NCBI GenBank assembly: GCA_021780935.1
Contig: JAJXXT010000038.1
Coordinates: forward strand, 1 to 17,739
Origin: Pseudomonadota bacterium
Lineage (GTDB): Bacteria; Pseudomonadota; Alphaproteobacteria; Acetobacterales; Acetobacteraceae
Direction: 5' to 3'
Length of the DNA: 17,739 nucleotides
The position numbers and the translations under genes were made by a program. Of this stretch, positions 1-15,749 are shown one piece after another. The notes under the pieces are model-generated. The model worked only from the letters and a program-made list of their open reading frames with translations, did no database searches and was not told the origin of the DNA. Each line of letters opens with the position of its first letter. Positions within the stretch are counted from its first letter, which is position 1.

Positions 1-537
1 GACGATGATCTTGTCGCCCGGCGCGTCGGCAAGGCGGCGCAGCCGGGCCGCGAGGTCGTCGGGATCGTTGTGGCGGAAGCGTGTCACCTCGGCATAGCCG
101 AGGCGCGCGCCGTCGTAGATGCTGGCGTGGCAGTCGGCGTCGAGCAGCAGGTGGTCGTGCTTGCCGGCCAGTGCCGAGAGGATGCCGAGATTGGCCTGGT
201 AGCCGGTGGAGAACACCATCGCGTGGCGGCGGCCGTAGAAACCGGCCAGCGCGCGTTCCAGATGCCGGTGGCCCGCGTAGCTGCCATTGGCGATACGCGA
301 GCCGGTGGTGCCGCTGCCCGACGCCTGCAGCGCCTCGACCGCGCTCGCGACCACCGCCGGATCGTAGGTGAGGCCGAGGTAATTATTGGTGCCGAGCAGC
401 AGGATCTCGCGGTTGCCGATCAGCCCCTCGGTGGGCGAGAGCACGCGGTCGAAGACCACGTTGAAGGGGTTGCTGCCGGCCTTTTCGAGCTTGTCGTAGG
501 CGGCCCGCAGTGGCGCAAACTTGTCGAAAAGCGCCAT
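1..537 (-). CDS. spt: Serine palmitoyltransferase (N-terminal 179 residues, cut by window edge)
   Basis: This PLP-dependent alpha-oxoamine synthase would condense L-serine with an acyl thioester to give 3-ketosphinganine, the first committed step of sphingolipid synthesis in the cytoplasm. Reading leftward from the ATG at 537-535, the frame is open to the window edge (179 codons). It contains NPFNVVFDRVLSPTEGLIGN, then LLLGTNNYLGL, GTTGSRIANGSY and FSTGYQANLGILSAL, the N-terminal half of the family fold. The PLP lysine lies beyond the window. The start is two bases after the stop of the acyl carrier protein gene, so the two are surely co-transcribed. 8-Amino-7-oxononanoate synthase and 2-amino-3-ketobutyrate ligase share the fold. 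The dedicated carrier protein and the long N-terminal block resemble bacterial serine palmitoyltransferases, so I favour that call. The C-terminal half was not available to confirm it. Confidence 0.85.
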   Translation of the reverse strand, partial: MALFDKFAPLRAAYDKLEKAGSNPFNVVFDRVLSPTEGLIGNREILLLGTNNYLGLTYDPAVVASAVEALQASGSGTTGSRIANGSYAGHRHLERALAGFYGRRHAMVFSTGYQANLGILSALAGKHDHLLLDADCHASIYDGARLGYAEVTRFRHNDPDDLAARLRRLADAPGDKIIV

Positions 538-539
538 GC

Positions 540-791
540 TCAGGCGGCGACCTTGAGGCCGCTCAGGATCCCGATCAGGTCGCCGAGCGACTCGATCTCG
601 GCGATCTTGTCGAGCGGCACGGTGATATCCAGCCGGCTCTCGATCTCCATCACGAAATCCATCACCGCGACCGAATCGAGCCCGAGATCGGTGACGATGT
701 TGGTGGCGTCAGACAGCGCCGACGGCGGGTTGGGCGAGGCGCGCAGGACCTCGAAGACGACCTCGCGGATATGTTCGACCGATGAGTCCAT
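540..791 (-). CDS. Dedicated acyl carrier protein of the sphingolipid locus
   Basis: This is an 83-residue acyl carrier protein. The phosphopantetheine attachment motif is DLGLDS, with Ser40 as the modified residue, and the chain is the usual four-helix ACP length. Start choice: the same frame extends upstream, but the ATG at 791-789 is preceded by an AGGG Shine-Dalgarno at good spacing and gives a full-length ACP without an extension. It lies immediately upstream of the serine palmitoyltransferase gene with a two-base gap. In alphaproteobacteria such as Caulobacter, a specialised ACP is encoded next to Spt and supplies the acyl thioester. That role here is inferred from the position. It is probably not the housekeeping fatty-acid ACP, which normally sits beside fabF/fabD. 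Confidence 0.88.
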   Translation of the reverse strand: MDSSVEHIREVVFEVLRASPNPPSALSDATNIVTDLGLDSVAVMDFVMEIESRLDITVPLDKIAEIESLGDLIGILSGLKVAA

Positions 792-1089
792 GTGCCCTGC
801 CGCCGGTCCGAAAGACGCAACCAGGCTCGCGCGGAGCCCTTTCGCCCATGTCCGCCGTATTCTCCGCCGTCTCCGGGCTGGCGGCGATTCCTGCGGAATC
901 GCAGGCGGGCATGTCGATCTTTGATGACGTGGCGATGACACGGCGTCAAGACAGCCGGCGCCGGCGGGCCGGGGCGGTGGAGGGACGGCGGAGGGATGGC
1001 TTGCCTTGCTCGGCACGCCCCCGCATACAGCCGGGTCATCAATTGGGACATCGGGGCGTGCGACCAGCGGCCCGAGGCAGGTGAACGGC
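792..1089. promoter_or_regulatory. Divergent intergenic region between sphingolipid and inositol arms
   Basis: This 298-bp gap has no convincing gene. It must hold the promoters of both lipid arms. Visible structures are two overlapping inverted repeats: GATTCC-TGC-GGAATC at 886-900 and CCTGCG-GAAT-CGCAGG at 890-905. They could be an operator or a hairpin. A weak sigma70-like pair for the rightward arm is TTGCCT (1001-1006) and CATACA (1024-1029) with a 17-bp spacer. A GAGGCAG Shine-Dalgarno-like stretch precedes the ATG at 1090. All site assignments are pattern-based only. Confidence 0.4.
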
Positions 1090-2217
1090 ATGGCCAGAAG
1101 CGGCGGTATCCGTATCGCGATCGCGGGGATCGGCAATTGCGCCAGCGCGCTGATCCAGGGAATTCATTACTACACTCCGGAGCGCTGCCGCGACGGCGTC
1201 GTCGGGCTGATGCACCGCGAGATCGGCGGCTACCTGCCCAGCGACATCAGCGTGGTCGCCGCCTTTGACATCGACGCGCGCAAGGTCGGCCAGGATGTCG
1301 CCCGGGCGATCTTCGCCAAGCCCAACTGCACCAAGGTGTTCCAGCCGGACATCCCCGAGAGCGGCGTGATCGTGCGGATGGGTCAGGTTCTCGATGGCAT
1401 CTCCGAGCACATGGAGGAATATGCCGCGGACCGCACCTTCGTGCGCGCCGACGTGCCGGAGCTGTCGCGCGCCGAGATCGTCGCCCTGCTGCGGCGCAGC
1501 GGCGCGGAGATCCTGCTCAACTACATGCCCGTGGGCTCCGAGCAGGCGGCGCGCTTCTATGCCGAGTGCGCGCTCGAGGCGGGCTGCGCCTTCGTCAACA
1601 ACATGCCGGTGTTCATCGCCAGCGACCCGGCCTTCGCCGCGCGCTTCAAGGCGCGCGGACTGCCGATCGTGGGCGATGACATCAAGTCGCAGGTCGGCGC
1701 CACCATCACCCACCGGGTGCTGACCGACCTGTTCGCCAAGCGCGGGGTCAAGCTGCTGCGCACCTACCAGCTCAACACCGGTGGCAACACCGACTTCCTC
1801 AACATGAAGAACCAGCGCCGCCTGGCCTCGAAGAAGACCTCGAAGACCGAGGCGGTGCAGGCGGTTGCGAAGAAGCGCCTCGAGGACGACAACATTCATG
1901 TCGGCCCGAGCGACTACGTGCCGTGGCAGAACGACAACAAGGTCTGCTTCATCCGCATGGAAGGGCTGCTGTTCGGCGATGTACCGATGGACCTCGAGCT
2001 GCGCCTCTCGGTCGAGGATTCGCCCAACTCCGCGGGCGTCGTCATCGACATGATCCGCTGCTGCAAGCTCGCGCTCGAGAACGGCATCGGCGGCGTGCTC
2101 GAAGGGCCGGCCGCGTATTTCTGCAAGCATCCGCCGGTGCAGCATACCGACGACGTCGCCTATCAGATGACCGAAGGCTTCATCCGCGCCAGCAGCATCA
2201 AGCTCGCGGTGCGATGA
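1090..2217 (+). CDS. ino1: myo-Inositol-1(3)-phosphate synthase
   Basis: This cytoplasmic NAD-dependent enzyme isomerises D-glucose 6-phosphate to inositol phosphate, the entry into inositol lipids and solutes. The protein has 375 residues, matching the short class found in actinobacteria and other prokaryotes. The dinucleotide-binding loop GIGNCAS is at residues 13-19. Further family blocks are NYMPVGSEQA, FVNNMPVFIA, GDDIKSQVGAT (conserved active-site lysine), YQLNTGGNTDFLNM, SKKTSKTEAV and VGPSDYVPWQND. Start choice: the frame extends 84 bases upstream, but the ATG at 1090 has a GAGGCAG motif before it and places the Rossmann strand near the N terminus as the family requires. It overlaps the next gene by 4 bp (ATGA), so the pair is probably translationally coupled. 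Confidence 0.95.
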   Translation: MARSGGIRIAIAGIGNCASALIQGIHYYTPERCRDGVVGLMHREIGGYLPSDISVVAAFDIDARKVGQDVARAIFAKPNCTKVFQPDIPESGVIVRMGQVLDGISEHMEEYAADRTFVRADVPELSRAEIVALLRRSGAEILLNYMPVGSEQAARFYAECALEAGCAFVNNMPVFIASDPAFAARFKARGLPIVGDDIKSQVGATITHRVLTDLFAKRGVKLLRTYQLNTGGNTDFLNMKNQRRLASKKTSKTEAVQAVAKKRLEDDNIHVGPSDYVPWQNDNKVCFIRMEGLLFGDVPMDLELRLSVEDSPNSAGVVIDMIRCCKLALENGIGGVLEGPAAYFCKHPPVQHTDDVAYQMTEGFIRASSIKLAVR

Positions 2218-2930
2218 AGTGCCTGATCGTCGCCGCCGGCCAGGGCACGCGGCTGCGTGAGAAGGGCGAGCTCAAGCCGCTGATTCCGATCAAGGGGGCG
2301 CCGCTCATCGAGCATGTGATGACGCGCGTGCTCGCATGCGGGATCGAGGAGTTCGTCGTCGTCAGCGGCTGGCGCGGCCCTGAACTGCGCGCCGCCCTCG
2401 ACGCGCTGGCCGCGCGCGAGAAGATCCGCCTCACGCACGTCGTCAACGACGAATGGACGCGCGCCAACGGTGTTTCCGTCCACAAGGCCCGGGCGGCGCT
2501 GGACGGGCCGTTCCTGCTGACCATGTGCGACCACCTCGTCGATCCCGCCATCTTCGCCGCCCTGCTTGCCGCGCCGCATGCGCCGGACACGGTGACCCTC
2601 GCGGTGGACTTCAAGACCGGCAGCGACCTGCACGACCCCGAGGATGTCACGCGCGTCAGATGCGCCGATGGGCGGATCCTGCACATCGGCAAGGTGATCC
2701 GCGACTTCAACGCCTTCGATACCGGCGTCTTTCACTGCACGCCGGCGATGTTCGAGGCCCTCGAACGCAGCCAGGCGGAGGGCGACGACAGCATCTCCGG
2801 GGCAATGAACGTGCTGGCGCGCGAGGGCCGGGCGCGCGCCTTGGACATCGGCGAGCGACTGTGGATCGACGTCGACGACCCGGCGGCCTACGCCCGCGCC
2901 GAGCGGCTGCTGCACGCGGGGCGGCTCTGA
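2214..2930 (+). CDS. Sugar-phosphate-type nucleotidyltransferase, probable CTP:inositol-phosphate cytidylyltransferase
   Basis: This 238-residue protein is a single GT-A-fold nucleotidyltransferase domain. Visible motifs are the nucleotide-binding loop AAGQGTRL (7-14), K21-P22-L23, a metal-binding Asp in MCDH (104-107), DTGVF (169-173) and WIDVDDP (217-223). The segment NDEWTRANGVSVHKA resembles the substrate region of phospho-alcohol cytidylyltransferases (IPCT, LicC types). Proposed reaction: CTP plus inositol 1-phosphate to CDP-inositol plus pyrophosphate. The fold is certain. The substrate is inferred from the 4-bp overlap with ino1 upstream and a CDP-alcohol phosphotransferase 14 bp downstream. 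In several archaea and thermophiles the equivalent domain is fused to the phosphotransferase; here it is a separate chain. Choline- or glycerol-phosphate cytidylyltransferase activity is the main alternative. Confidence 0.78.
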   Translation: MKCLIVAAGQGTRLREKGELKPLIPIKGAPLIEHVMTRVLACGIEEFVVVSGWRGPELRAALDALAAREKIRLTHVVNDEWTRANGVSVHKARAALDGPFLLTMCDHLVDPAIFAALLAAPHAPDTVTLAVDFKTGSDLHDPEDVTRVRCADGRILHIGKVIRDFNAFDTGVFHCTPAMFEALERSQAEGDDSISGAMNVLAREGRARALDIGERLWIDVDDPAAYARAERLLHAGRL

Positions 2931-2944
2931 CGCCGGGCGCAGCG

Positions 2945-3811
2945 ATGGCGCAGGGTGAGCCGGTGCGCCGCGCCCTCGAGATCGAGGAAGTCTCGAACCG
3001 CTGGATCATCCACCCGGCCGCGGCCTGGCTCACGCCGCGCCTCGCCCGCGCCGGCATCCATCCGAACGCGGTGTCGCTCGCGGGAATGGGCTGTGGCGTG
3101 CTCGCGGGCCTGGCCTATCACGGCTATGCCAGTCGCTGGCGCGTGCTGCTGGGCTTCGTGCTGATGCTCGCCTGGCATGTGCTCGATGGCGCCGACGGGC
3201 AGCTGGCGCGGCTCACCGGCAAGCAATCGCCCTCGGGCAAGGTGCTCGATGGCATCTGCGATTATGTCACCTTCATCGCCGTCTACGCGGGCCTGGCCTC
3301 GGCGCTGCAGCGCACGCTCGGCCTGTGGGCCTGGCCGCTCGCCGTCGTCGCCGGGATCTGCCACGCCGTGCAGTCGGCCGCCTACGAGGTGCAGCGGCAG
3401 GAATACGGCTTCTGGGGGCTCGGCCGCGCCTCCGCCGCGTTCGGCCGGCCGGGTGCGACCGGGCGCGGCGTCCTGGCGGGCCTCTATGGCGCCTATCTGC
3501 GGCTGCAATACGCGGCCTCCGGCACGGGCCCGGCCTTCCATGCGCGCCTCTCGGAGGTGCTCGCCGGCGGCGCCGACGGCGGCGCGGCGCGGCGCCAGTG
3601 CTACCGGGCGCTCTTCGCCCCCGCGGTGCGGCGCTGGGCGGTGCTGTCGGCGAACTACCGCACGCTCGGCATCTTCCTGTTCGCCTGGGCCGGCGTGCCG
3701 CAATACTACTTCTGGTTCGACATCGTCGGGTTCAGCGCCATCCTGCTGGTGCTGCTGCGCGGCCGGCGCCGGCGCTATGCCCGTTTCTTCGCCGCGCCGG
3801 ACCGGCCCTGA
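2945..3811 (+). CDS. CDP-alcohol phosphotransferase, membrane-bound; candidate CDP-inositol:lipid phosphoinositol transferase
   Basis: This 288-residue integral membrane protein carries the full CDP-alcohol phosphotransferase signature: D81, D84, G85, A88, R89, G98, D102 and D106, with the family's exact spacing. The four aspartates bind metal and the CDP-alcohol. Hydrophobic stretches lie near residues 44-80, 106-137 and 248-275. The ATG at 2945 is 14 bp after the cytidylyltransferase gene; the Shine-Dalgarno is weak (GGGCGCAG). Proposed role: transfer of phospho-inositol from CDP-inositol onto a hydroxyl acceptor at the inner membrane. The acceptor cannot be read from sequence. Diacylglycerol (as in the CDP-inositol route described in Rhodothermus), ceramide (suggested by the divergent Spt-ACP pair) and inositol phosphate (as in DIPP synthase) are all possible. 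A classic phosphatidylinositol-phosphate synthase using CDP-diacylglycerol would not need the cytidylyltransferase next door. Confidence 0.85.
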   Translation: MAQGEPVRRALEIEEVSNRWIIHPAAAWLTPRLARAGIHPNAVSLAGMGCGVLAGLAYHGYASRWRVLLGFVLMLAWHVLDGADGQLARLTGKQSPSGKVLDGICDYVTFIAVYAGLASALQRTLGLWAWPLAVVAGICHAVQSAAYEVQRQEYGFWGLGRASAAFGRPGATGRGVLAGLYGAYLRLQYAASGTGPAFHARLSEVLAGGADGGAARRQCYRALFAPAVRRWAVLSANYRTLGIFLFAWAGVPQYYFWFDIVGFSAILLVLLRGRRRRYARFFAAPDRP

Positions 3812-3842
3812 GCCCGAGCCCGGCAGGGACAGCCAGAGCGCC

Positions 3843-3883
3843 CTCCGGTCTGCCTGAGCCTGTCCGGTGCGGGTAGACCGGAG
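3843..3883 (+). terminator. Hairpin after the inositol-lipid operon
   Basis: CTCCGGTCT (3843-3851) is perfectly complementary to AGACCGGAG (3875-3883). The stem can extend inward by about five more pairs including wobbles. It begins 32 bp after the stop of the CDP-alcohol phosphotransferase gene. No T-run follows, so it is not a textbook intrinsic terminator. It may stabilise the 3' end or act with the palindromic element just downstream. Confidence 0.5.
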
Positions 3884-3909
3884 ATAAGCTGCTCTGGATT
3901 CCAAGTTTC

Positions 3910-8862: not shown

Positions 8863-9051
8863 GACTCCGGTGGCCCGCGAGGGCTGAAACGGGAACGCGG
8901 AACGCCAGCCTTCGGGTTGGCGCAGGCCGCGGCTGCCCCCGCAACTGTGAGCGGCGCGTCCGGCGCCACACGCCATTGCCCGACCAGGGCGAGAAGGCGG
9001 TGCCGGACGGGGGAAATCCCGGCGCCGCGAGCCAGGAGACCGGCCGGAGTC
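8863..9051 (+). ncRNA. Cobalamin (adenosylcobalamin) riboswitch
   Basis: The 5' leader of the btuB gene carries the class hallmarks in order: GGCTGAAACGGGAA (8882-8895), CCCGCAACTGTGAGCGG (8938-8954) and the B12 box AGCCAGGAGACCGGCC (9030-9045). The closing helix P1 is GACTCCGG (8863-8870) with CCGGAGTC (9044-9051), an exact complement, which sets the edges. Binding of cobalamin is expected to shut down expression of the downstream receptor. Confidence 0.95.
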
Positions 9052-9160
9052 GAGAGCGCACGCGCGCACCGGGCGGGGAGCCCCGGCGCAACGGGCAAAC
9101 CCCGCATGCTTGCATCGCCCTGACAACCGCGGGGGCATCCCCGTTGCTGGAGTGCGAGAC
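9052..9160 (+). promoter_or_regulatory. Expression platform and ribosome binding site of btuB
   Basis: This is the stretch between the riboswitch aptamer and the btuB ATG. A short hairpin CGGGG-GCAT-CCCCG (9130-9143) lies just ahead of the Shine-Dalgarno GGAG (9149-9152, 8 bases from the ATG). A second small hairpin, CCGGG/CCCGG, is at 9069-9086. There is no T-run, so control of translation initiation is more likely than intrinsic termination. This is inference from layout. Confidence 0.5.
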
Positions 9161-11143
9161 ATGACGCCTTGCCGTTTCGCTATCGTTACATCCCTGTGCG
9201 CCGCCGCAGCGACGCTGCCGGCCGCGGCGCAGACCGCGCCCGAGCTGCAACTGCCCGAGACGGTCGTCACCGCGACGCGCGTGCCGACGCTGATCGAGCA
9301 GATCCCCGCCGGCGTGACCGTCATCACCCGCCGGCAACTCGAACAGGCGGGGGCGACGACGCTCGCCGACGCGCTGGCTCTGGTCCCCGGGCTGGTGCCG
9401 GTCGCCTCGGGCGGGCCTGGCGGCAACACCAGCGTCTTCATCCGCGGCACCAATTCGGATCACGTGCTGGTGCTGCGCGACGGGGTTCCGCTCAACGACC
9501 CGTCCGATCCCGGAGCGGCCTTCAATTTCGGCGTCGACACCCTGGCCAGCGTGGACCGCATCGAGATCGTCCGTGGCCCGATGTCCTCGCTCTATGGCTC
9601 GGGCGCGATCGGCGGCGTCATCAACATCATCACCAGGCGCGGCAGCGGTCCGGCGCACGGCACGGTCACGCTGGGTGCCGGGCTGCCGGCCACCGGCGAG
9701 GCCGCGGCGACGCTGGCCGGTGGCAGCGGCCTCTGGGACTACCGCCTCGGCGCCCAGGCGCTGGACACCACCTACGGCGATACGATTCCGAAACGGGAGA
9801 CGGTCTATGCCGGCCATCGCGAGTTCTATCGCGGCGATGCCGGCTCGCTCGAACTCGGCTACACGCCACGCCCCGGCACGCGCCTGTTCCTCGGCCTCGA
9901 CGGCCGCACCTCGGCCTTCTCGCTGAAGGAGCACGGTTTCCCGACTTACGACTCCCAGGCCTATCGCGGCTACGACAATGCCTGGAACGGCCGTCTCGGA
10001 GCGACGACGACACTGTTCGGCTACTGGGACAGCGCGCTCACGCTCGCGCATCTGCAGACCGACCGCCACTATGTGCAGCCGCTCGAAGCGCTCGATCCGA
10101 ACGCCGCGTCCGGCGACAGCCGCTATCACGGCGCGCGCGACATGCTGTCCTGGAACAACACGCTGCACGTCGCCGCCAGCAGTGCGCTCAGCGATGCGGC
10201 GGTGCTGTTCGGCTACGAGCATCGGCTCGATAGCTCCAACTCCCGCCTCGACCTCGTCACCGGCGGGTTCCCCTATGTCAGCGCCGTGCGCGCCTCGGCG
10301 ACCTCGGACGCGGGGCATGCGGGACTGCAGGGGACGCTCTGGCACCGTCTTTCGCTGACCGCCGACATCCGTGGCGAGCACGCGCGTTATGGTGGCGGGG
10401 CGGTGACGTGGCGGCTCGGCGCGGTGCTGGCGGTGCCGGAAATCCGCTCGCACCTTCACGCCGCCTACGGCACCGCCTTTCGCGCTCCCTCGCTCTACGA
10501 CCTCTTCGGCCAGGACAATTACGGCTATGTCGGCAATCCGGCACTGAAACCGGAACGAAGCCAGGGCTACGAGATCGGCTGGACCACCGACCTGCCGCTC
10601 GCCGGCCGGCCCAAGGGGCTCTCGCTCGATGTCACTTATTTCGAAAACGACATCAACGACCTGATCCAGACGGAGTTCAACGCGAGCTTTACCGCCTCGA
10701 CGCAGCAGAACGTCGCCAGGGCCCGCTCGCGCGGCGTGGAAGTGACACTCACGGCGCGTCCCGCCGTCTGGCTCACGGCCGATCTCACCTACACCTACAC
10801 GGATGCGCGCGACCTCAGCGCGCATACGCCGCTGCTGCGCCGGCCCAAGAACCGTGGCACGGTCGATGCGCGCATCGAACCCATTCCGGGCCTGGTGGTC
10901 GAACCCCAGCTCGTGCTCACCAGCGCCTTCGACGATTACATCGAAAACAATTTCGGCTACCCGGTCGGTCCCGGCCTGTCGCCGGGTGGCGCCTATGCCA
11001 ACCTCGCCGTGAGCTATCGTCTGCGGCCGCGGCTGACGCTGTTCGCGGACGCGCGCAACCTCTTCAACTCCCGCTTCGAGGCGGCCAGCGGCTTCGCGAT
11101 GCCGGGCGCCTCGCTGCTGCTGGGTCTGCGCGGCGGATTCTGA
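9161..11143 (+). CDS. btuB: TonB-dependent outer-membrane cobalamin receptor
   Basis: This 660-residue precursor has a signal peptide (hydrophobic to about residue 19, cleavage near AAA-Q around 23-24), then a TonB box LPETVVTATR (31-40). The plug domain includes ADALALVPGLVPV, FIRGTNSDHVLVLRDGVPL and MSSLYGSGAIGGVINIITRR. A beta-barrel follows, with FRAPSLYDLFG, NPALKPERSQGYEIGW and a C-terminal GLRGGF ending in the phenylalanine used by the BAM machinery. It would bind corrinoid at the cell surface and pull it into the periplasm using TonB energy. The upstream cobalamin riboswitch and the neighbouring btuFCD genes make cobalamin the likely ligand. Start choice: the ATG at 9161 has a GGAG motif and begins a proper signal peptide, whereas the in-frame ATG at 9110 would place extra residues before it. 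Confidence 0.93.
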   Translation: MTPCRFAIVTSLCAAAATLPAAAQTAPELQLPETVVTATRVPTLIEQIPAGVTVITRRQLEQAGATTLADALALVPGLVPVASGGPGGNTSVFIRGTNSDHVLVLRDGVPLNDPSDPGAAFNFGVDTLASVDRIEIVRGPMSSLYGSGAIGGVINIITRRGSGPAHGTVTLGAGLPATGEAAATLAGGSGLWDYRLGAQALDTTYGDTIPKRETVYAGHREFYRGDAGSLELGYTPRPGTRLFLGLDGRTSAFSLKEHGFPTYDSQAYRGYDNAWNGRLGATTTLFGYWDSALTLAHLQTDRHYVQPLEALDPNAASGDSRYHGARDMLSWNNTLHVAASSALSDAAVLFGYEHRLDSSNSRLDLVTGGFPYVSAVRASATSDAGHAGLQGTLWHRLSLTADIRGEHARYGGGAVTWRLGAVLAVPEIRSHLHAAYGTAFRAPSLYDLFGQDNYGYVGNPALKPERSQGYEIGWTTDLPLAGRPKGLSLDVTYFENDINDLIQTEFNASFTASTQQNVARARSRGVEVTLTARPAVWLTADLTYTYTDARDLSAHTPLLRRPKNRGTVDARIEPIPGLVVEPQLVLTSAFDDYIENNFGYPVGPGLSPGGAYANLAVSYRLRPRLTLFADARNLFNSRFEAASGFAMPGASLLLGLRGGF

Positions 11144-12111: not shown

Positions 12112-12163
12112 CTGGAGCAATAAATCCGACCAGATAATTCGATCTGGTTCGATATCGCTCTAG
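12112..12163. repeat. 52-bp palindromic intergenic repeat, copy 2
   Basis: This is the second copy of the element at 3910-3961, in the same orientation on this strand, with 45 of 52 identical positions. The inner stem is GACCAGAT/ATCTGGTT around the loop AATTCG; the outer stem is GAGCAATA/TATCGCTC with one mismatch. It begins 2 bp after the hydrolase stop and contains the TAG stop codon (12162-12160) of the convergent adenosyltransferase gene. It is well placed to act as a bidirectional terminator, but it has no T-run. Confidence 0.85.
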
Positions 12164-12717
12164 CGGTTCGCTCCCGGCACCCACAGCACGTCGCCGGCCG
12201 CCCGCTCGTTGAGCAGACGGGACAGCACGAAGAGATGGTCCGAGGCGCGATTCAGCAGCCGCAGGACCGCCGGGTTCACGCCATCGGCCCGCAGCGCGGC
12301 GATGCGCCGTTCGGCCCGGCGCAACAGCGTGCGCGCGACATGCGCCTGCGCCGCCGCCGGTGTTCCGCCTGGCAGCACGAAGCTCGCAAGCGGCGCAAGC
12401 CCGCTCGCCATTGCCGCGATCTCCGCCTCGAGCCGCACGACGGGCGCGTCCGTCACCCGCAGCCGTTTGCCCGCGTCGCCCGGGACCGCGAGATCGGCGC
12501 CGACATCGAAAAGATCGTTCTGAAGCCGTGACAGTGCCGCGTCGGTCGCCGGGTCGCCGGCAACCAGGCAGCGCAACACGCCGAGCGCGGCGTTCGCCTC
12601 GTCGACGGCGCCGATCGCCTCGATCCGCGCCGTTTCCTTGCCAACTCGCGCGCCATCGCCGAGCGAAGTCTCGCCCGCATCGCCGCCACGCGTCACCACC
12701 CGGTCGATCCTGACCAT
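12160..12717 (-). CDS. pduO: PduO-type ATP:cob(I)alamin adenosyltransferase
   Basis: This 185-residue cytoplasmic enzyme adds the 5'-deoxyadenosyl group of ATP to cob(I)alamin, giving coenzyme B12. The N-terminal TRGGDAGETSLGDGARVGK (9-27) is the ATP-binding segment of the PduO family. FVLPGGTPAAAQAHVARTLLRRAERR and LNRASDHLFVLSRLLN contain the conserved helical bundle and active-site residues. The length is typical of the stand-alone enzyme. It is the last gene of the leftward B12 cluster; its Shine-Dalgarno AGGAG overlaps the TAG stop of the tonB gene, 8 bp away. Its presence completes an import-and-activation pathway. Its stop codon lies inside palindromic repeat copy 2. Confidence 0.93.
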   Translation of the reverse strand: MVRIDRVVTRGGDAGETSLGDGARVGKETARIEAIGAVDEANAALGVLRCLVAGDPATDAALSRLQNDLFDVGADLAVPGDAGKRLRVTDAPVVRLEAEIAAMASGLAPLASFVLPGGTPAAAQAHVARTLLRRAERRIAALRADGVNPAVLRLLNRASDHLFVLSRLLNERAAGDVLWVPGANR

Positions 12718-12725
12718 TGCCTCTC

Positions 12726-13412
12726 CTAAGGGCCGAACGTCACGGCGATCTTGTAGATGCTGGAAACCGGCGCGCCGCCCTGCGTCGCCGGGGTGAAATG
12801 CCAGGTGCGCAGCCGCGCCACCGCTGCCTGATCCAGCAGCGGATAGCCGGAGCTTTTAATCACTTTCACGCGATCGACAAACCCATCCGCCGCGACATAG
12901 AGCCACAGCCCCACGGTTCCCATCTGGTGCCGCCGCGCGGCCGCGGGCGGATAGGCCGGCGCCAGGTTGCCCTTGTCGGGCTGCGTCGTGACGTTCACGC
13001 TCTTGTTGCGGTCATTGCGGACGGCGACCGAGGGCCCGCCGAGGCTGCCGAACTCCATCGGCAGGCTTTGTCGCGGCGGTGCCGCCGCCGCCTTCGGCCG
13101 CGGTGCCGGTGGCGCGTCGGTCTTCGGCTGTGGCGGTGTGGACCGCGGGACCGGGGGCCTCGCCGCCGCTTGCTGGCGCTTGGGCGGCGCCGGGGGGGCC
13201 GTCGGCCCGCCGCGCGCCCTTTGATCGCCCTGTCCCTTGGTGAGCAGGATCTGAACCGTCGCCTGGTTCAACGGCACGGGCGCCGCCGGCGCCGGTCGCG
13301 CCGGCTGCCACAGGATCGCGACCAGCGCCGCCATGTGCAGCAGCAGCGACAGTCCCGCAGCCCACGCCATCCGCCGTGTCCGCGCGTGCCGCCCGGTTGG
13401 TCGTTGCATCAT
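12726..13412 (-). CDS. tonB: TonB-family energy transducer
   Basis: This 228-residue protein has the TonB plan. A short cytoplasmic basic N terminus is followed by one transmembrane helix at about 16-36, containing the S22-xxx-H26 pair that matches the TonB Ser/His motif. Next comes a long Pro/Ala/Lys-rich periplasmic spacer (about 37-115) and a C-terminal domain (about 150-228) with AYPPAAARRHQMGTVGLWLY, VIKSSGYPLLDQAAV and LRTWHFTPA. It would pass proton-motive energy from ExbB/ExbD to outer-membrane receptors. Those partners are not in the window. The ATG overlaps the btuD stop by 4 bp (ATGA), so this TonB is made with the cobalamin importer and may be dedicated to BtuB. Confidence 0.9.
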   Translation of the reverse strand: MMQRPTGRHARTRRMAWAAGLSLLLHMAALVAILWQPARPAPAAPVPLNQATVQILLTKGQGDQRARGGPTAPPAPPKRQQAAARPPVPRSTPPQPKTDAPPAPRPKAAAAPPRQSLPMEFGSLGGPSVAVRNDRNKSVNVTTQPDKGNLAPAYPPAAARRHQMGTVGLWLYVAADGFVDRVKVIKSSGYPLLDQAAVARLRTWHFTPATQGGAPVSSIYKIAVTFGP

Positions 13413-14083
13413 GGCAATAGTCGCGGCGCGGTATCGCAGCCCACGCGCATTCCGAAGGCTGCCGCCGCGGCGGCCAGCACCTCCGCCGGCGCTCCGTCCG
13501 CGACGATCGCACCATCGCGCATCACGGCTACGCGGCTGGCATGGCGCATCGCCAGCTCCACCGCATGCAGCACGACGACGACGGCTACGCCCGCAGCCGC
13601 CTGGCGCCGCAGCAGGGCCATCAGCGCCTCGCTTGCCGCGGGGTCGAGATCGGCGGTCGGCTCGTCGAGCAGCAGCACCTTCGCCTCGGTTGCCAGTACC
13701 CGCGCGAGCATCGCCCGCCTTGCCTCGCCGCCAGAAAGCCGGTCGACCCGGGCCGATGCCAGCGACGCTATTCCCGCCGCCTGCAGAGCCCGCGCCACCG
13801 CGTCGGCGTTGCGCCCGCCATGCGGCAGGCGCCCCAGCGCCGCCACCTCGGCGACCGTCATTCCCCAGGCCGCCCGCGCACCCTGCTCCAGCCAGGCGAC
13901 CTGTCGCGGATCGCGCCTTGGCGTGCCGGCGAGCAGGCCTGCCAGCGCCAGCAGCAGCGTCGACTTACCCGCTCCGTTCGGCCCGACCACCGCGCAGAGT
14001 TCGCCAGGGCGCACCGCGAAGCTCACCTGGTCCAGGACAGTCTTCCCGGCGCGCGAGATCGTCACGTTATCGAGACAAATCAT
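13409..14083 (-). CDS. btuD: Cobalamin-type ABC importer ATPase
   Basis: This 224-residue ATPase has Walker A GPNGAGKST (34-42), signature LSGGE (116-120), Walker B VLLLD with E141, D-loop ADLD and the switch histidine H173. It energises the FecCD-type permease encoded just upstream. It is shorter than many FecE/BtuD homologues (about 250 residues). Its ATG overlaps the permease stop by 4 bp and its own stop overlaps the tonB start by 4 bp. The B12 assignment rests on the gene context; siderophore or heme importers use the same fold. Confidence 0.88.
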   Translation of the reverse strand: MICLDNVTISRAGKTVLDQVSFAVRPGELCAVVGPNGAGKSTLLLALAGLLAGTPRRDPRQVAWLEQGARAAWGMTVAEVAALGRLPHGGRNADAVARALQAAGIASLASARVDRLSGGEARRAMLARVLATEAKVLLLDEPTADLDPAASEALMALLRRQAAAGVAVVVVLHAVELAMRHASRVAVMRDGAIVADGAPAEVLAAAAAAFGMRVGCDTAPRLLP

Positions 14084-15009
14084 CGCCGGGCCAGCACCGC
14101 CAGGAACGGCGCGCCGAGCAGCGCCGTGAGCACCCCGAGGCGCGGTTGGGCGTGCAGCGGCAGCAGCATCGGCGCGAGCCGGGCCAGCAGGTCCGCGGCC
14201 ACCAGCAGGCAGGCGCCGCCGAGCAGCGAGGGCCAGAGCAGCGCTCCCGGTCGCTCCCCCACGGCGGGTCGTAGCAGATTCGGAACGACGAGGCCGACGA
14301 AGCCGATTCCCCCCACGACCGCCGCGCCGGCGCCGACCGCGAGCGCCACGCCAGCCGCCGCCCGGCGCCAGGTCGCAGCGGCATCGAAGCCGAGGCTTGC
14401 CGCCGTCGTCTCGCCCAACGCCAGCGCGTCGAGCCGCGAGCCGAGCCGCAGCAGCATCGCACAGCCCGCCGCGACCGGGACCGAGGCGAGCATCACCGCG
14501 GCTGGCGTCTTATCCGCGACGCTGCCCATCAGCCAGTCGCCGAGTTCGGCCAACGCGAACGGGTTCGGCGCCAACGCCATCACCAGCGCGAGCAGGGCGG
14601 AGGCGATCGAGGCCAACGCGATGCCGGCCAGGATGAAGGCAAGCCCGGTGCCGGCCCGCGCCGCGAAGCCGAACAGCGCCACGCCGCCGAACGTCGCGCC
14701 CAGCAACCCCGCGAGCGGCAGGGCGAGCGGCGAGGCGGCGGCCAATCCCCAGTAGAACGCAACCGCACCGCCCAGGCTCGCGCAGCCGCTGATGCCCAAC
14801 AGGCCAGGGTCCGCAAGCCGGTTGCCCATCGCGCCCTGCAGCACCGCGCCGGAAACCCCGAGACCGGCGCCGACCACCACCGCCAGCACGGTGCGCGGCA
14901 GGCGCAGCAGCAACAGGATCGTGGCCGGCGGAACGCCCAGCCCGGCGCCCCCCACCAGCAGGCTCGCCAGGCAAAGCAGCATCAGCAAAAGGGCCAGACG
15001 TATCGTCAT
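14080..15009 (-). CDS. btuC: Cobalamin-type ABC importer permease (FecCD family)
   Basis: This 309-residue, strongly hydrophobic protein has the approximately ten-helix pattern of BtuC/FecCD permeases. Family landmarks are LPRTVLAVVVGAGLGVSGA near residue 37, GNRLADPGLLGISG, LGDWLMGSV, ALALGETTAASLGFD (the cytoplasmic coupling region facing the ATPase) and GGIGFVGLVVPNLLRPAVG. Start choice: the frame is open far upstream, but the ATG at 15009 begins directly with a transmembrane helix and overlaps the btuF stop by 4 bp, so it is the likely start. It forms the inner-membrane channel of a BtuFCD-like importer. Confidence 0.9.
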   Translation of the reverse strand: MTIRLALLLMLLCLASLLVGGAGLGVPPATILLLLRLPRTVLAVVVGAGLGVSGAVLQGAMGNRLADPGLLGISGCASLGGAVAFYWGLAAASPLALPLAGLLGATFGGVALFGFAARAGTGLAFILAGIALASIASALLALVMALAPNPFALAELGDWLMGSVADKTPAAVMLASVPVAAGCAMLLRLGSRLDALALGETTAASLGFDAAATWRRAAAGVALAVGAGAAVVGGIGFVGLVVPNLLRPAVGERPGALLWPSLLGGACLLVAADLLARLAPMLLPLHAQPRLGVLTALLGAPFLAVLARR

Positions 15010-15749
15010 TGCAACAGATGCACCGCTCCGGCGGTCCACGGCCCGGGGCAGGCGACCAGCCGCATCGGCACCGTCGCGCGCGGAATTCCTGCGAGCGCCG
15101 GATGCGTCAGAACCGCGTCCGCAAGCGAGGGAAAGCGCGGCATCGCCGGCAGGACCAGCAGGCGCGGCGGATCGGCCACGAGTGCCTCGAGCCCGCCCGA
15201 CCGCGCCACCGGCACGTAGCCCGCATGGCGCAACACCGCTCCCTCGATGGTGTCCGCTCCCGCCGTCACCAGCCGTGGCTGCAACCATACGGCGGTGCCG
15301 CGCGGGGCGGATCGTGGCGCCAGCGCTGCGTCCATCGTCGCGATCGCCGCCGCGCCGCGCGCCGCGACGCCAAGCACACGCGCCAGTGCCTGCCATTGCG
15401 CCCTGATGCCGGCGAAGCTCCTTGGTTCGCCGAATACGACGACGCGCACGCCCGTATCGCGCAGCGCCGCCAGCACCGCCTGCGCGCCGTACCGTCCCGC
15501 CAGCACGAGCTTCGGGTGTAGTGCCAGCACGGCCTCCGCGTCGGCGCCGACGGCGGGCACATGGGCCGCCGCCGCCGCCACCACGGAGAGCGAGGGATCG
15601 CGCGCCAGGAAACTCACCGCCGCGGCCCGCTGCGGCGCCAGCGTGAGCAACGCCTCGTCGGTGCAAAGGTTCAACGAGACCACGTTGCGTGCCGCCGACG
15701 CGGCCACGGGCAGGCCGATCGCCACCAGCGCGAGCAGCAATGCCCTCAC
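15006..15749 (-). CDS. btuF: Periplasmic corrinoid-binding protein of the ABC importer
   Basis: This 247-residue precursor has a signal peptide (hydrophobic residues 3-18, cleavage after ASA at about 19). The mature part begins with VVSLNLCTDEALLTL, the first strand of BtuF/FhuD-type class III binding proteins. FLARDPSLSV, VGADAEAVLALHPKLVLAG and VVVFGEP follow in the expected order, then the C-terminal lobe. The start is a GTG (15749-15747) overlapping the stop of the cation exporter gene by four bases (GTGA). The stop overlaps the permease start. It would hand corrinoid from BtuB to the BtuCD channel. Ligand assignment is from the riboswitch-btuB gene and the adenosyltransferase nearby. Confidence 0.87.
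   Translation of the reverse strand: MRALLLALVAIGLPVAASAARNVVSLNLCTDEALLTLAPQRAAAVSFLARDPSLSVVAAAAAHVPAVGADAEAVLALHPKLVLAGRYGAQAVLAALRDTGVRVVVFGEPRSFAGIRAQWQALARVLGVAARGAAAIATMDAALAPRSAPRGTAVWLQPRLVTAGADTIEGAVLRHAGYVPVARSGGLEALVADPPRLLVLPAMPRFPSLADAVLTHPALAGIPRATVPMRLVACPGPWTAGAVHLLQ

Follow-up and report, generated by a model that had tools for sequence, protein, structure and literature searches.

We analysed a stretch of 17,739 nucleotides (the window: positions 1 to 17,739 of contig JAJXXT010000038.1, assembly GCA_021780935.1) from a Pseudomonadota bacterium of the Acetobacteraceae, the left end of which carries two divergent gene sets (Table 1). One holds spt and acp, coding serine palmitoyltransferase (Spt) and an acyl carrier protein (ACP); the other holds ino1, a CTP:inositol-1-phosphate cytidylyltransferase-like gene (IPCT) and a long-type CDP-alcohol phosphotransferase gene (CDP-AP). 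A check of the open reading frames (ORFs) confirmed the coordinates and families of this layout, which a first-pass annotation had described as genes on opposite strands with a 298-bp divergent region in common. In our reading, to which we give a probability of roughly 0.7, the window holds the head-group start of a sphingolipid pathway, in which inositol-phosphoceramide would be made in a CDP-inositol-dependent manner, glucosaminylated in those relatives that carry a PIG-L deacetylase, and exported.

Table 1. Genes and candidate regulatory elements at the left end of the window.
Feature	Position	Strand	Basis
spt, serine palmitoyltransferase, 5' part only, 179 residues, runs past the left edge of the window	1..537	-	NF047599 match
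acp, acyl carrier protein with DSV carrier-serine region, directly upstream of spt	540..791	-	PP-binding, E 1.6e-11
Divergent region between the two operons, 298 bp	792..1089	.	Aligned with L009 and L010
Conserved 29-bp block TGATGACGTGGCGATGACACGGCGTCAAG, candidate operator common to both operons	922..950	.	Near-identical in window, L009 and L010
Candidate ino1 promoter elements, GCTTGCCTTGC ... CCGCATA	999..1027	+	Conserved in window, L009 and L010
ino1, inositol-1-phosphate synthase	1090..2217	+	Inos-1-P_synth, E 2.2e-35
CTP:inositol-1-phosphate cytidylyltransferase-like gene (IPCT)	2214..2930	+	NCBIfam and solved relatives
Long-type CDP-alcohol phosphotransferase gene (CDP-AP)	2945..3811	+	CDP-OH_P_transf, E 5.8e-12

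The Spt fragment scored 294 bits against NF047599 (cut-off 500) over positions 1-179 of the model's 394, and the full-length Spt of two genomes of the same genus, G494 and G593, reached 655 and 657 bits. The window ino1 gave 426.5 bits with the mycothiol_INO1 model, under its cut-off of 638, and its stop is overlapped by the IPCT ATG by 4 nt. Downstream of CDP-AP lie a repeat and then unrelated genes.

All activities and lipids of the pathway are predictions from sequence. Spt and its own ACP would begin ceramide synthesis, as established for the Spt family, and Ino1 would convert glucose-6-phosphate into inositol-1-phosphate, as known for its family. The cytidylyltransferase would then turn inositol-1-phosphate into CDP-inositol, as its IPCT relatives and its overlap with ino1 suggest, and the long-type CDP-AP would move phosphoinositol from CDP-inositol onto ceramide or dihydroceramide with release of CMP, in the manner of a choline/ethanolamine phosphotransferase. 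In relatives with an extra cassette, a GT4 glycosyltransferase (GT) would put a sugar, probably N-acetylglucosamine (GlcNAc), on the inositol, and the PIG-L deacetylase would unmask its amine. Transport of the lipid to the outer membrane would then fall to a MOP flippase and an LptF/LptG pair of its own. The product would be inositol-phosphoceramide or, where PIG-L is present (11 of 21 IPCT genomes of the nearest family), glucosaminyl-inositol-phosphoceramide.

A contig scan with the IPCT kept 80 of 123 relatives as loci (L numbers; genomes bear G numbers), many of them cut by contig ends. The long-type CDP-AP, about 260-313 residues where uncut, occurred in 53 of the 80, mostly from Acetobacteraceae, Acidocella and Azospirillaceae; ino1 was present in 46 of these 53, some of the remainder being cut contigs, and ACP and Spt were found in 26 and 25, adjacent wherever both showed. 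At least four arrangements keep spt linked to the ino1-IPCT-CDP-AP run, namely divergent (window, L009, L010), colinear with LptF/LptG genes in between (Acidocella, Nitrospirillum), with spt between IPCT and CDP-AP (L020, L065), and convergent with a gap of 56-59 bp (G496, G552, G595). Such linkage, kept through rearrangement, is strong evidence of joint function. The adjacency, on whose occurrence beyond a single genome the first-pass annotation had staked its proposal, thus recurs in Acetobacteraceae, Azospirillaceae and others.

The other 27 loci, mostly from Desulfobacterota, Gammaproteobacteria and other metagenome-assembled genomes (MAGs), gave a weak CDP-AP match of ~200 residues where measured, with a frame of 390 residues in L079; a few had no detected CDP-AP, among them L024 and L032, which carry other cluster genes. 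Most of L062-L088, from Desulfobacterota, Gammaproteobacteria and other MAGs, combine ino1-IPCT with a short CDP-AP, mostly without Spt where searched. By eye these short runs resemble AF2299/DIPPS, and their product may be an inositol phospholipid or di-inositol phosphate.

Co-occurrence with Spt was assessed over 249 genomes of the nearest family, in counts that overlap with the locus-based ones. Long CDP-AP was found in 22 genomes, and all 21 genomes with IPCT were among these; Spt was found in 82, with 81 scores over cut-off. Of the 22 CDP-AP genomes, 21 had Spt (Fisher 1.7e-10). Likewise, all 11 IPCT genera fell within the 37 Spt genera of 102 (4.8e-6). These genomes are non-independent, and some appear under two handles with identical Spt coordinates (G577/G644, G576/G654, G610/G006). 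Genomes were also reached by way of loci or the class-wide sample. Of those with the long type, 12 of 12 and 11 of 14 had Spt over cut-off, whereas the counts for those lacking it were 0 of 2 and 1 of 12 (Fisher 5.8e-7); the latter have at most weak CDP-AP matches, with the short length measured for some loci only, and L058 lies outside the genomes searched for Spt. These counts show that long CDP-AP goes with sphingolipids; the converse fails.

Coincidental neighbourhood of genes from separate pathways would accord with the 10 of 20 family genomes with both genes in which spt is distant from CDP-AP or on another contig. Against this, spt lies within 10 kb of CDP-AP in the other 10 of 20, where random placement predicts 0.12, and does so in several arrangements and four genera, although with only four genera these are not 10 independent events. 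The 20-genome test omits two of the 22: G527, which has no Spt, and G428, which has Spt but no IPCT and a weak CDP-AP match. Coincidence fails on this chance-distance comparison, and we regard it as extremely unlikely.

The cytidylyltransferase is, by sequence comparison, closest to known IPCTs. Among NCBIfam models, the bifunctional IPCT/DIPPS NF041135 scored best, at 112 bits (E 2.8e-32) against a cut-off of 580. The solved structures closest to the enzyme were those of A. fulgidus IPCT, 2XME (2e-17) and 4MND (6e-17) and the nucleotidyltransferase 4JD0 (2e-15), which an excerpt of PMC12275187 gives as T. maritima IPCT; the next match was at 2.5e-9. R13, K21, D106, IGK (158-160) and DTGxF (169-173) were at least 97% conserved in the 55 IPCT sequences of suitable length (54 of the 80 loci plus the window). 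Read off the alignments with solved relatives, the first three align with the active-site Arg, Lys and Asp named in that excerpt (PMC12275187), and the IGK and DTGxF segments are common to the window IPCT, 2XME and 4JD0. In addition, ino1 overlaps the IPCT start in all 48 long-type loci with both ends seen; the overlap is 4 nt long in 36 of them and 1 nt long in the other 12 (Gluconacetobacter, Nguyenibacter L037 and L060). Where loci of other types show a gap between ino1 and IPCT, it is in some cases an artefact of automatically set ORF ends.

A different substrate for this enzyme would make ino1 a mere neighbour. In Caulobacter, CpgD is a phosphoglycerate cytidylyltransferase whose top structural match, in the same excerpt, is T. 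maritima IPCT (PMC12275187), so that an IPCT-fold enzyme in a sphingolipid cluster may take another phospho-alcohol, e.g. phosphoglycerate. The constant ino1-IPCT overlap and the segments common with 2XME and 4JD0, a comparison that covered the solved relatives and left the CpgD sequence outside, both speak for inositol phosphate, and we consider another phospho-alcohol very unlikely.

CDP-AP carries the full PF01066 motif DxxDGxxAR...GxxxDxxxD and the corresponding fold, and belongs to the CDP-alcohol phosphotransferases. Of the curated models, those for archaetidylinositol phosphate synthase and phosphatidylinositol phosphate synthase scored highest, both under cut-off. The fold search placed it nearest AF2299 and then A. 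fulgidus IPCT-DIPPS; several specificities share this fold, so the search leaves donor and acceptor unsettled. From the operon and the co-occurrence with Spt, we propose that CDP-AP is a CDP-inositol:ceramide inositolphosphotransferase. A compatible-solute role, in which CDP-AP would join CDP-inositol and inositol phosphate to give di-myo-inositol phosphate phosphate as hyperthermophiles do, would fit the resemblance of IPCT and the CDP-AP fold to the A. fulgidus bifunctional enzyme (2XME, 4MND), with which the window shares the IPCT domain sequence and the CDP-AP fold. That enzyme, however, is one bifunctional osmolyte-making protein, whereas here two proteins stand in a lipid context, linked to and co-occurring with Spt, LptF/LptG and other lipid genes. 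The two window proteins reached 112 and 26 bits with NF041135 and thus do not qualify as the bifunctional enzyme, though two separate proteins could not reach its cut-off of 580. Taken with the lipid-gene linkage, these scores disfavour the osmolyte, which appears highly improbable.

Several observations weigh against the proposed inositol sphingolipid. The best solved sequence match of CDP-AP is cholinephosphotransferase 1 (8.5e-7), a user of diacylglycerol (DAG), and the ceramide acceptor is deduced from co-occurrence with Spt, which favours ceramide without proving it. G527 has CDP-AP (with an in-frame TAG) and IPCT and no Spt, long-type G653 (1.2 Mb of sequence) also has no Spt, and G662, outside the long type, has it; in G261 Spt lies in two pieces on separate contigs, one of which also bears CDP-AP. 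The distant copies in half of the 20 genomes count here as well, as in G610 (coordinates as in G006, Gluconacetobacter diazotrophicus), where record coordinates put 2.2 Mb between the genes. The inositol genes are missing from 61 of the 82 Spt genomes, so inositol would be one head-group choice among several, and CDP-AP is rare in the class, the long type occurring in only 2 of 385 genomes sampled across it. Lastly, PIG-L, LptF/LptG and GT genes are absent from the window itself.

The main rival acceptor is DAG: CDP-inositol would be made and used for phosphatidylinositol (PI), and an inositol sphingolipid would arise later or never. Besides the cholinephosphotransferase match, this agrees with the Bacteroidetes proposal, which in the excerpts of its source runs through PI-DAG (PMC9246714), and with the occurrence of ino1-IPCT with short or undetected CDP-AP in genomes mostly without Spt. 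Yet it is the long-type CDP-AP that tracks Spt; spt sits beside or inside the ino1-IPCT-CDP-AP run in several arrangements; and a scan of 20 neighbouring proteins, a subset of the genes, brought up nothing recognisable as a separate ceramide-transfer enzyme. We therefore judge DAG as acceptor unlikely, though less so than the other alternatives. The core of the original proposal, CDP-inositol as donor and ceramide as acceptor, withstood the analyses and gained from the non-unique adjacency and the Spt co-occurrence, with ceramide favoured and still unproven as the acceptor.

The cluster in relatives is larger than the genes first described, adding LptF/LptG permeases, a flippase, GT4 enzymes and, in about half, an MshB-like PIG-L. 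PIG-L was present in 21 of the 53 long-type loci and in 13 of the 249 family genomes, of which 11 also have IPCT (Fisher 5.6e-12). AHPDDE and HxxH were kept in all 21 aligned copies, and the relatives carry the PF02585 motif; we take HPDD and HxxH to form the PIG-L zinc site. The Pfam score (PF02585, cut-off 28.2 bits) was 30.9 for L021 and 27.3, just under, for L009. The only convincing solved relatives of the PIG-L profile were three sequences (E about 1e-4) of MshB, a GlcNAc-inositol deacetylase; with a structural model (pLDDT 92), MshB topped the Foldseek list (TM about 0.4), followed by antibiotic deacetylases (TM about 0.5). For the PIG-L-adjacent GT, the best solved match was 3C4Q/3C48, presumably MshA, in L009 and PimB'-type 3OKA in L018, in contrast to the other GT4 of the cluster, which gave weak matches only. 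With moderate weight, these results point to addition of GlcNAc to inositol and then de-N-acetylation, giving glucosaminyl-inositol-phosphoceramide, and suggest that PIG-L-bearing species process phosphoinositol-ceramide further instead of stopping at it.

The glucosaminyl step also faces contrary evidence. The MshB match covers only ~60 positions of the PIG-L profile with TM-scores about 0.4, the L021 GT is nearest BshA-type chains and then 3C4Q, and with NCBIfam the GTs of L009 and L021 score no better with MshA than with EpsE, stp2 and WcaL, every one of these under cut-off; GT4 enzymes are in any case poor guides to substrate. Two genomes have PIG-L without IPCT, namely G001 (67% complete, same genus) and G549 (45% identity), and 10 of the 21 IPCT genomes have no such PIG-L, so their end product should differ.

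The mycothiol enzymes MshA and MshB form a GT4 and PIG-L pair acting on GlcNAc-inositol, as proposed here, and ino1, GT and PIG-L all resemble mycothiol enzymes, as would be expected if these genes formed a mycothiol-like thiol pathway with CDP-AP incidental. In the present cluster, by contrast, PIG-L and GT sit with spt, flippase and CDP-AP genes, and MshC was over cut-off in 0 of 11 cluster genomes, the best matches (254 to 302 bits) being read as CysS. A thiol product is thus unlikely, and on the MshC result in these 11 genomes we rejected the mycothiol-like pathway as the least probable of the alternatives.

A radical SAM gene (e.g. L018:18180-19214) was observed in 13 of the 53 long-type loci, often beside PIG-L. 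The solved structures nearest to its core are tetraether synthase and MoaA-like chains, and the enzyme might modify the sugar or join lipid chains.

Besides acp, spt, the PIG-L deacetylase and two GT4 enzymes, the Acidocella aromatica locus (L021) codes a fatty-acid hydroxylase, a GNAT-like protein (weak match, slightly under cut-off), a fatty acyl-AMP ligase, a DXD glycosyltransferase, a MOP flippase and two permeases of the LptF/LptG family. By analogy with the Caulobacter pathway, the GNAT-like protein and the AMP ligase would presumably be ceramide synthase and acyl-ACP synthetase. The two LptF/LptG-like permeases were found in 41 and 40 of the 53 long-type loci, and the CDP-AP-proximal one of L021 scores as LptG. 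In the window's own genus, LptF/LptG genes follow CDP-AP in L010/L106 (G593), and PIG-L and a GT stand beside spt in L009 (G494); in G593 PIG-L and the GT are on a separate contig (L152). In the nearest relative, G001, which is without this region, 37 of 41 matches of window 1-3900 fall on a REP-like repeat, and PIG-L and GT genes are carried on a 6.8-kb contig. For the source organism, we infer the LptF/LptG and PIG-L cassette from these relatives.

Each of the 11 genomes G002-G012 had 4 to 6 LptF/LptG-family (PF03739) matches, and G013, G014 and G015 had 2, 3 and 2, some of them fragments. In a permease tree, the 15 cluster rows of each permease formed one clade apiece (support 100/100 and 100/99), which neither the other pair in those genomes nor an spt-linked pair of Gluconacetobacter entered. 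This tree has 48 rows (30 cluster, 11 other pair, 7 spt-linked), with many expected comparison rows missing and long branches flagged, and the "other pair" is the lipopolysaccharide (LPS) pair by assumption. LpxC was present in all 11 genomes checked, from which LPS synthesis is expected in these organisms too. Against a dedicated exporter stands long-type G013, whose sole two LptF/LptG matches both adjoin spt, so that a separate pair is not evident there. The separate clades and the PIG-L cassette both suggest a glycolipid that reaches the outer membrane in parallel with LPS. Four Gluconacetobacter genomes (G006, G010, G011 and G012; L161, L166, L168 and L170) carry an additional LptF/LptG pair next to spt that differs from both of the other pairs and may indicate two exported sphingolipids.

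We liken the GT4 and PIG-L pair to eukaryotic PIG-A/PIG-L, and the predicted glucosaminyl product would be a bacterial counterpart of plant and fungal glycosyl-inositol-phosphoceramides (GIPCs) and of the first two steps of glycosylphosphatidylinositol (GPI) synthesis. The full extension of this idea, a bacterial GIPC system in which CDP-inositol-dependent inositol-phosphoceramide would be glucosamine-capped by a GPI-like pair for GlcNAc transfer and de-N-acetylation, flipped, and exported by its own LptF/LptG beside the LPS route, to yield in Acetobacteraceae and Azospirillaceae a zwitterionic outer-membrane lipid convergent with plant GIPCs and the GPI start, seems to us evenly poised between right and wrong. 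Inositol-phosphoceramide of fungi and plants is made from PI; if the present reading is true, some bacteria have a membrane lipid much like that of plants and fungi, and the CDP-inositol route is a chemically different solution.

The closest characterised architecture is the ceramide phosphoglycerate (CPG/CPG2) cluster of Caulobacter crescentus, CC_1168-CC_1152 (PMC11324152, PMC12275187). As far as the excerpts of these papers go, both clusters combine an IPCT-fold cytidylyltransferase and a protein of the CDP-alcohol phosphotransferase family with ceramide genes including acp and spt, with a potential flippase and, here in relatives such as G002-G012, with second LptF and LptG copies; in Caulobacter a second LptC, LptF and LptG have been suggested to carry phosphosphingolipids (PMC11324152). 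On the same excerpts, the Caulobacter head group is phosphoglycerate, added via ceramide kinase, whereas ino1 and IPCT point to inositol here, and about half of the present carriers, unlike Caulobacter, add a PIG-L deacetylase.

Rhodothermus reportedly has a CDP-inositol phospholipid pathway, said to be the work of Jorge and colleagues in 2015, with CDP-inositol as head-group donor and an ether glycerolipid as acceptor; the donor is as proposed here, whereas the glycerolipid acceptor and the lack of sphingolipid context are not. An inositol phosphoceramide pathway was reportedly described in Bacteroides thetaiotaomicron by Sartorio and colleagues in 2022. This species makes the same product class, in the excerpted account via phosphatidylinositol-phosphate and PI and not CDP-inositol (PMC9246714). 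In the same source, Heaver et al. (PMC9246714) put forward a proposed, unconfirmed CDP-inositol route to phosphoinositol dihydroceramide (PI-DHC) in Bacteroidetes, through PI-DAG and a HAD hydrolase. Its alternative cluster in Bacteroides vulgatus and Prevotella shares MIPS, an NTP transferase, a CDP-alcohol phosphotransferase and the proposed use of CDP-inositol with ours; the excerpts mention no spt linkage (PMC9246714), whereas the present cluster, from another phylum, is directly linked to spt, LptF/LptG and PIG-L. No HAD hydrolase was found among the 20 neighbouring proteins scanned with Pfam, a subset of the cluster genes.

Among the matches listed in the open-access literature, no description of a proteobacterial CDP-inositol sphingolipid cluster was found. 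The first-pass annotation knew of no such route in proteobacteria; the idea as such is not entirely new, given the earlier, unconfirmed Bacteroidetes proposal, as excerpted (PMC9246714). The same excerpts report a PI-DHC-like lipid in Novosphingobium acidiphilum without known genes (PMC9246714), and the route could bear on such inositol sphingolipids in bacteria without matches to the B. thetaiotaomicron genes, N. acidiphilum itself being outside this analysis. Defined gene sets are now available in named strains of Acidocella aromatica, Gluconacetobacter diazotrophicus and Nitrospirillum.

Within the divergent region, the block TGATGACGTGGCGATGACACGGCGTCAAG matched once in the window and 0 times in shuffled sequence; conservation makes it a candidate operator shared by both operons, and the elements nearer ino1 its candidate promoter. 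The REP-like repeat, a dispersed short element with a palindrome, lies at window 3828-3900, and a second copy at 12112-12163 is 86% identical. Further along, a cobalamin riboswitch (RF00174, 81.5 bits) at 8864-9050 precedes the ORF at 9110-11143, which by eye reads like a TonB-dependent receptor. The ORFs at 12160-12717 and 13409-15749 (minus strand) look like a cobalamin adenosyltransferase and a B12 ABC importer, and this part of the window may hence be a B12 island.

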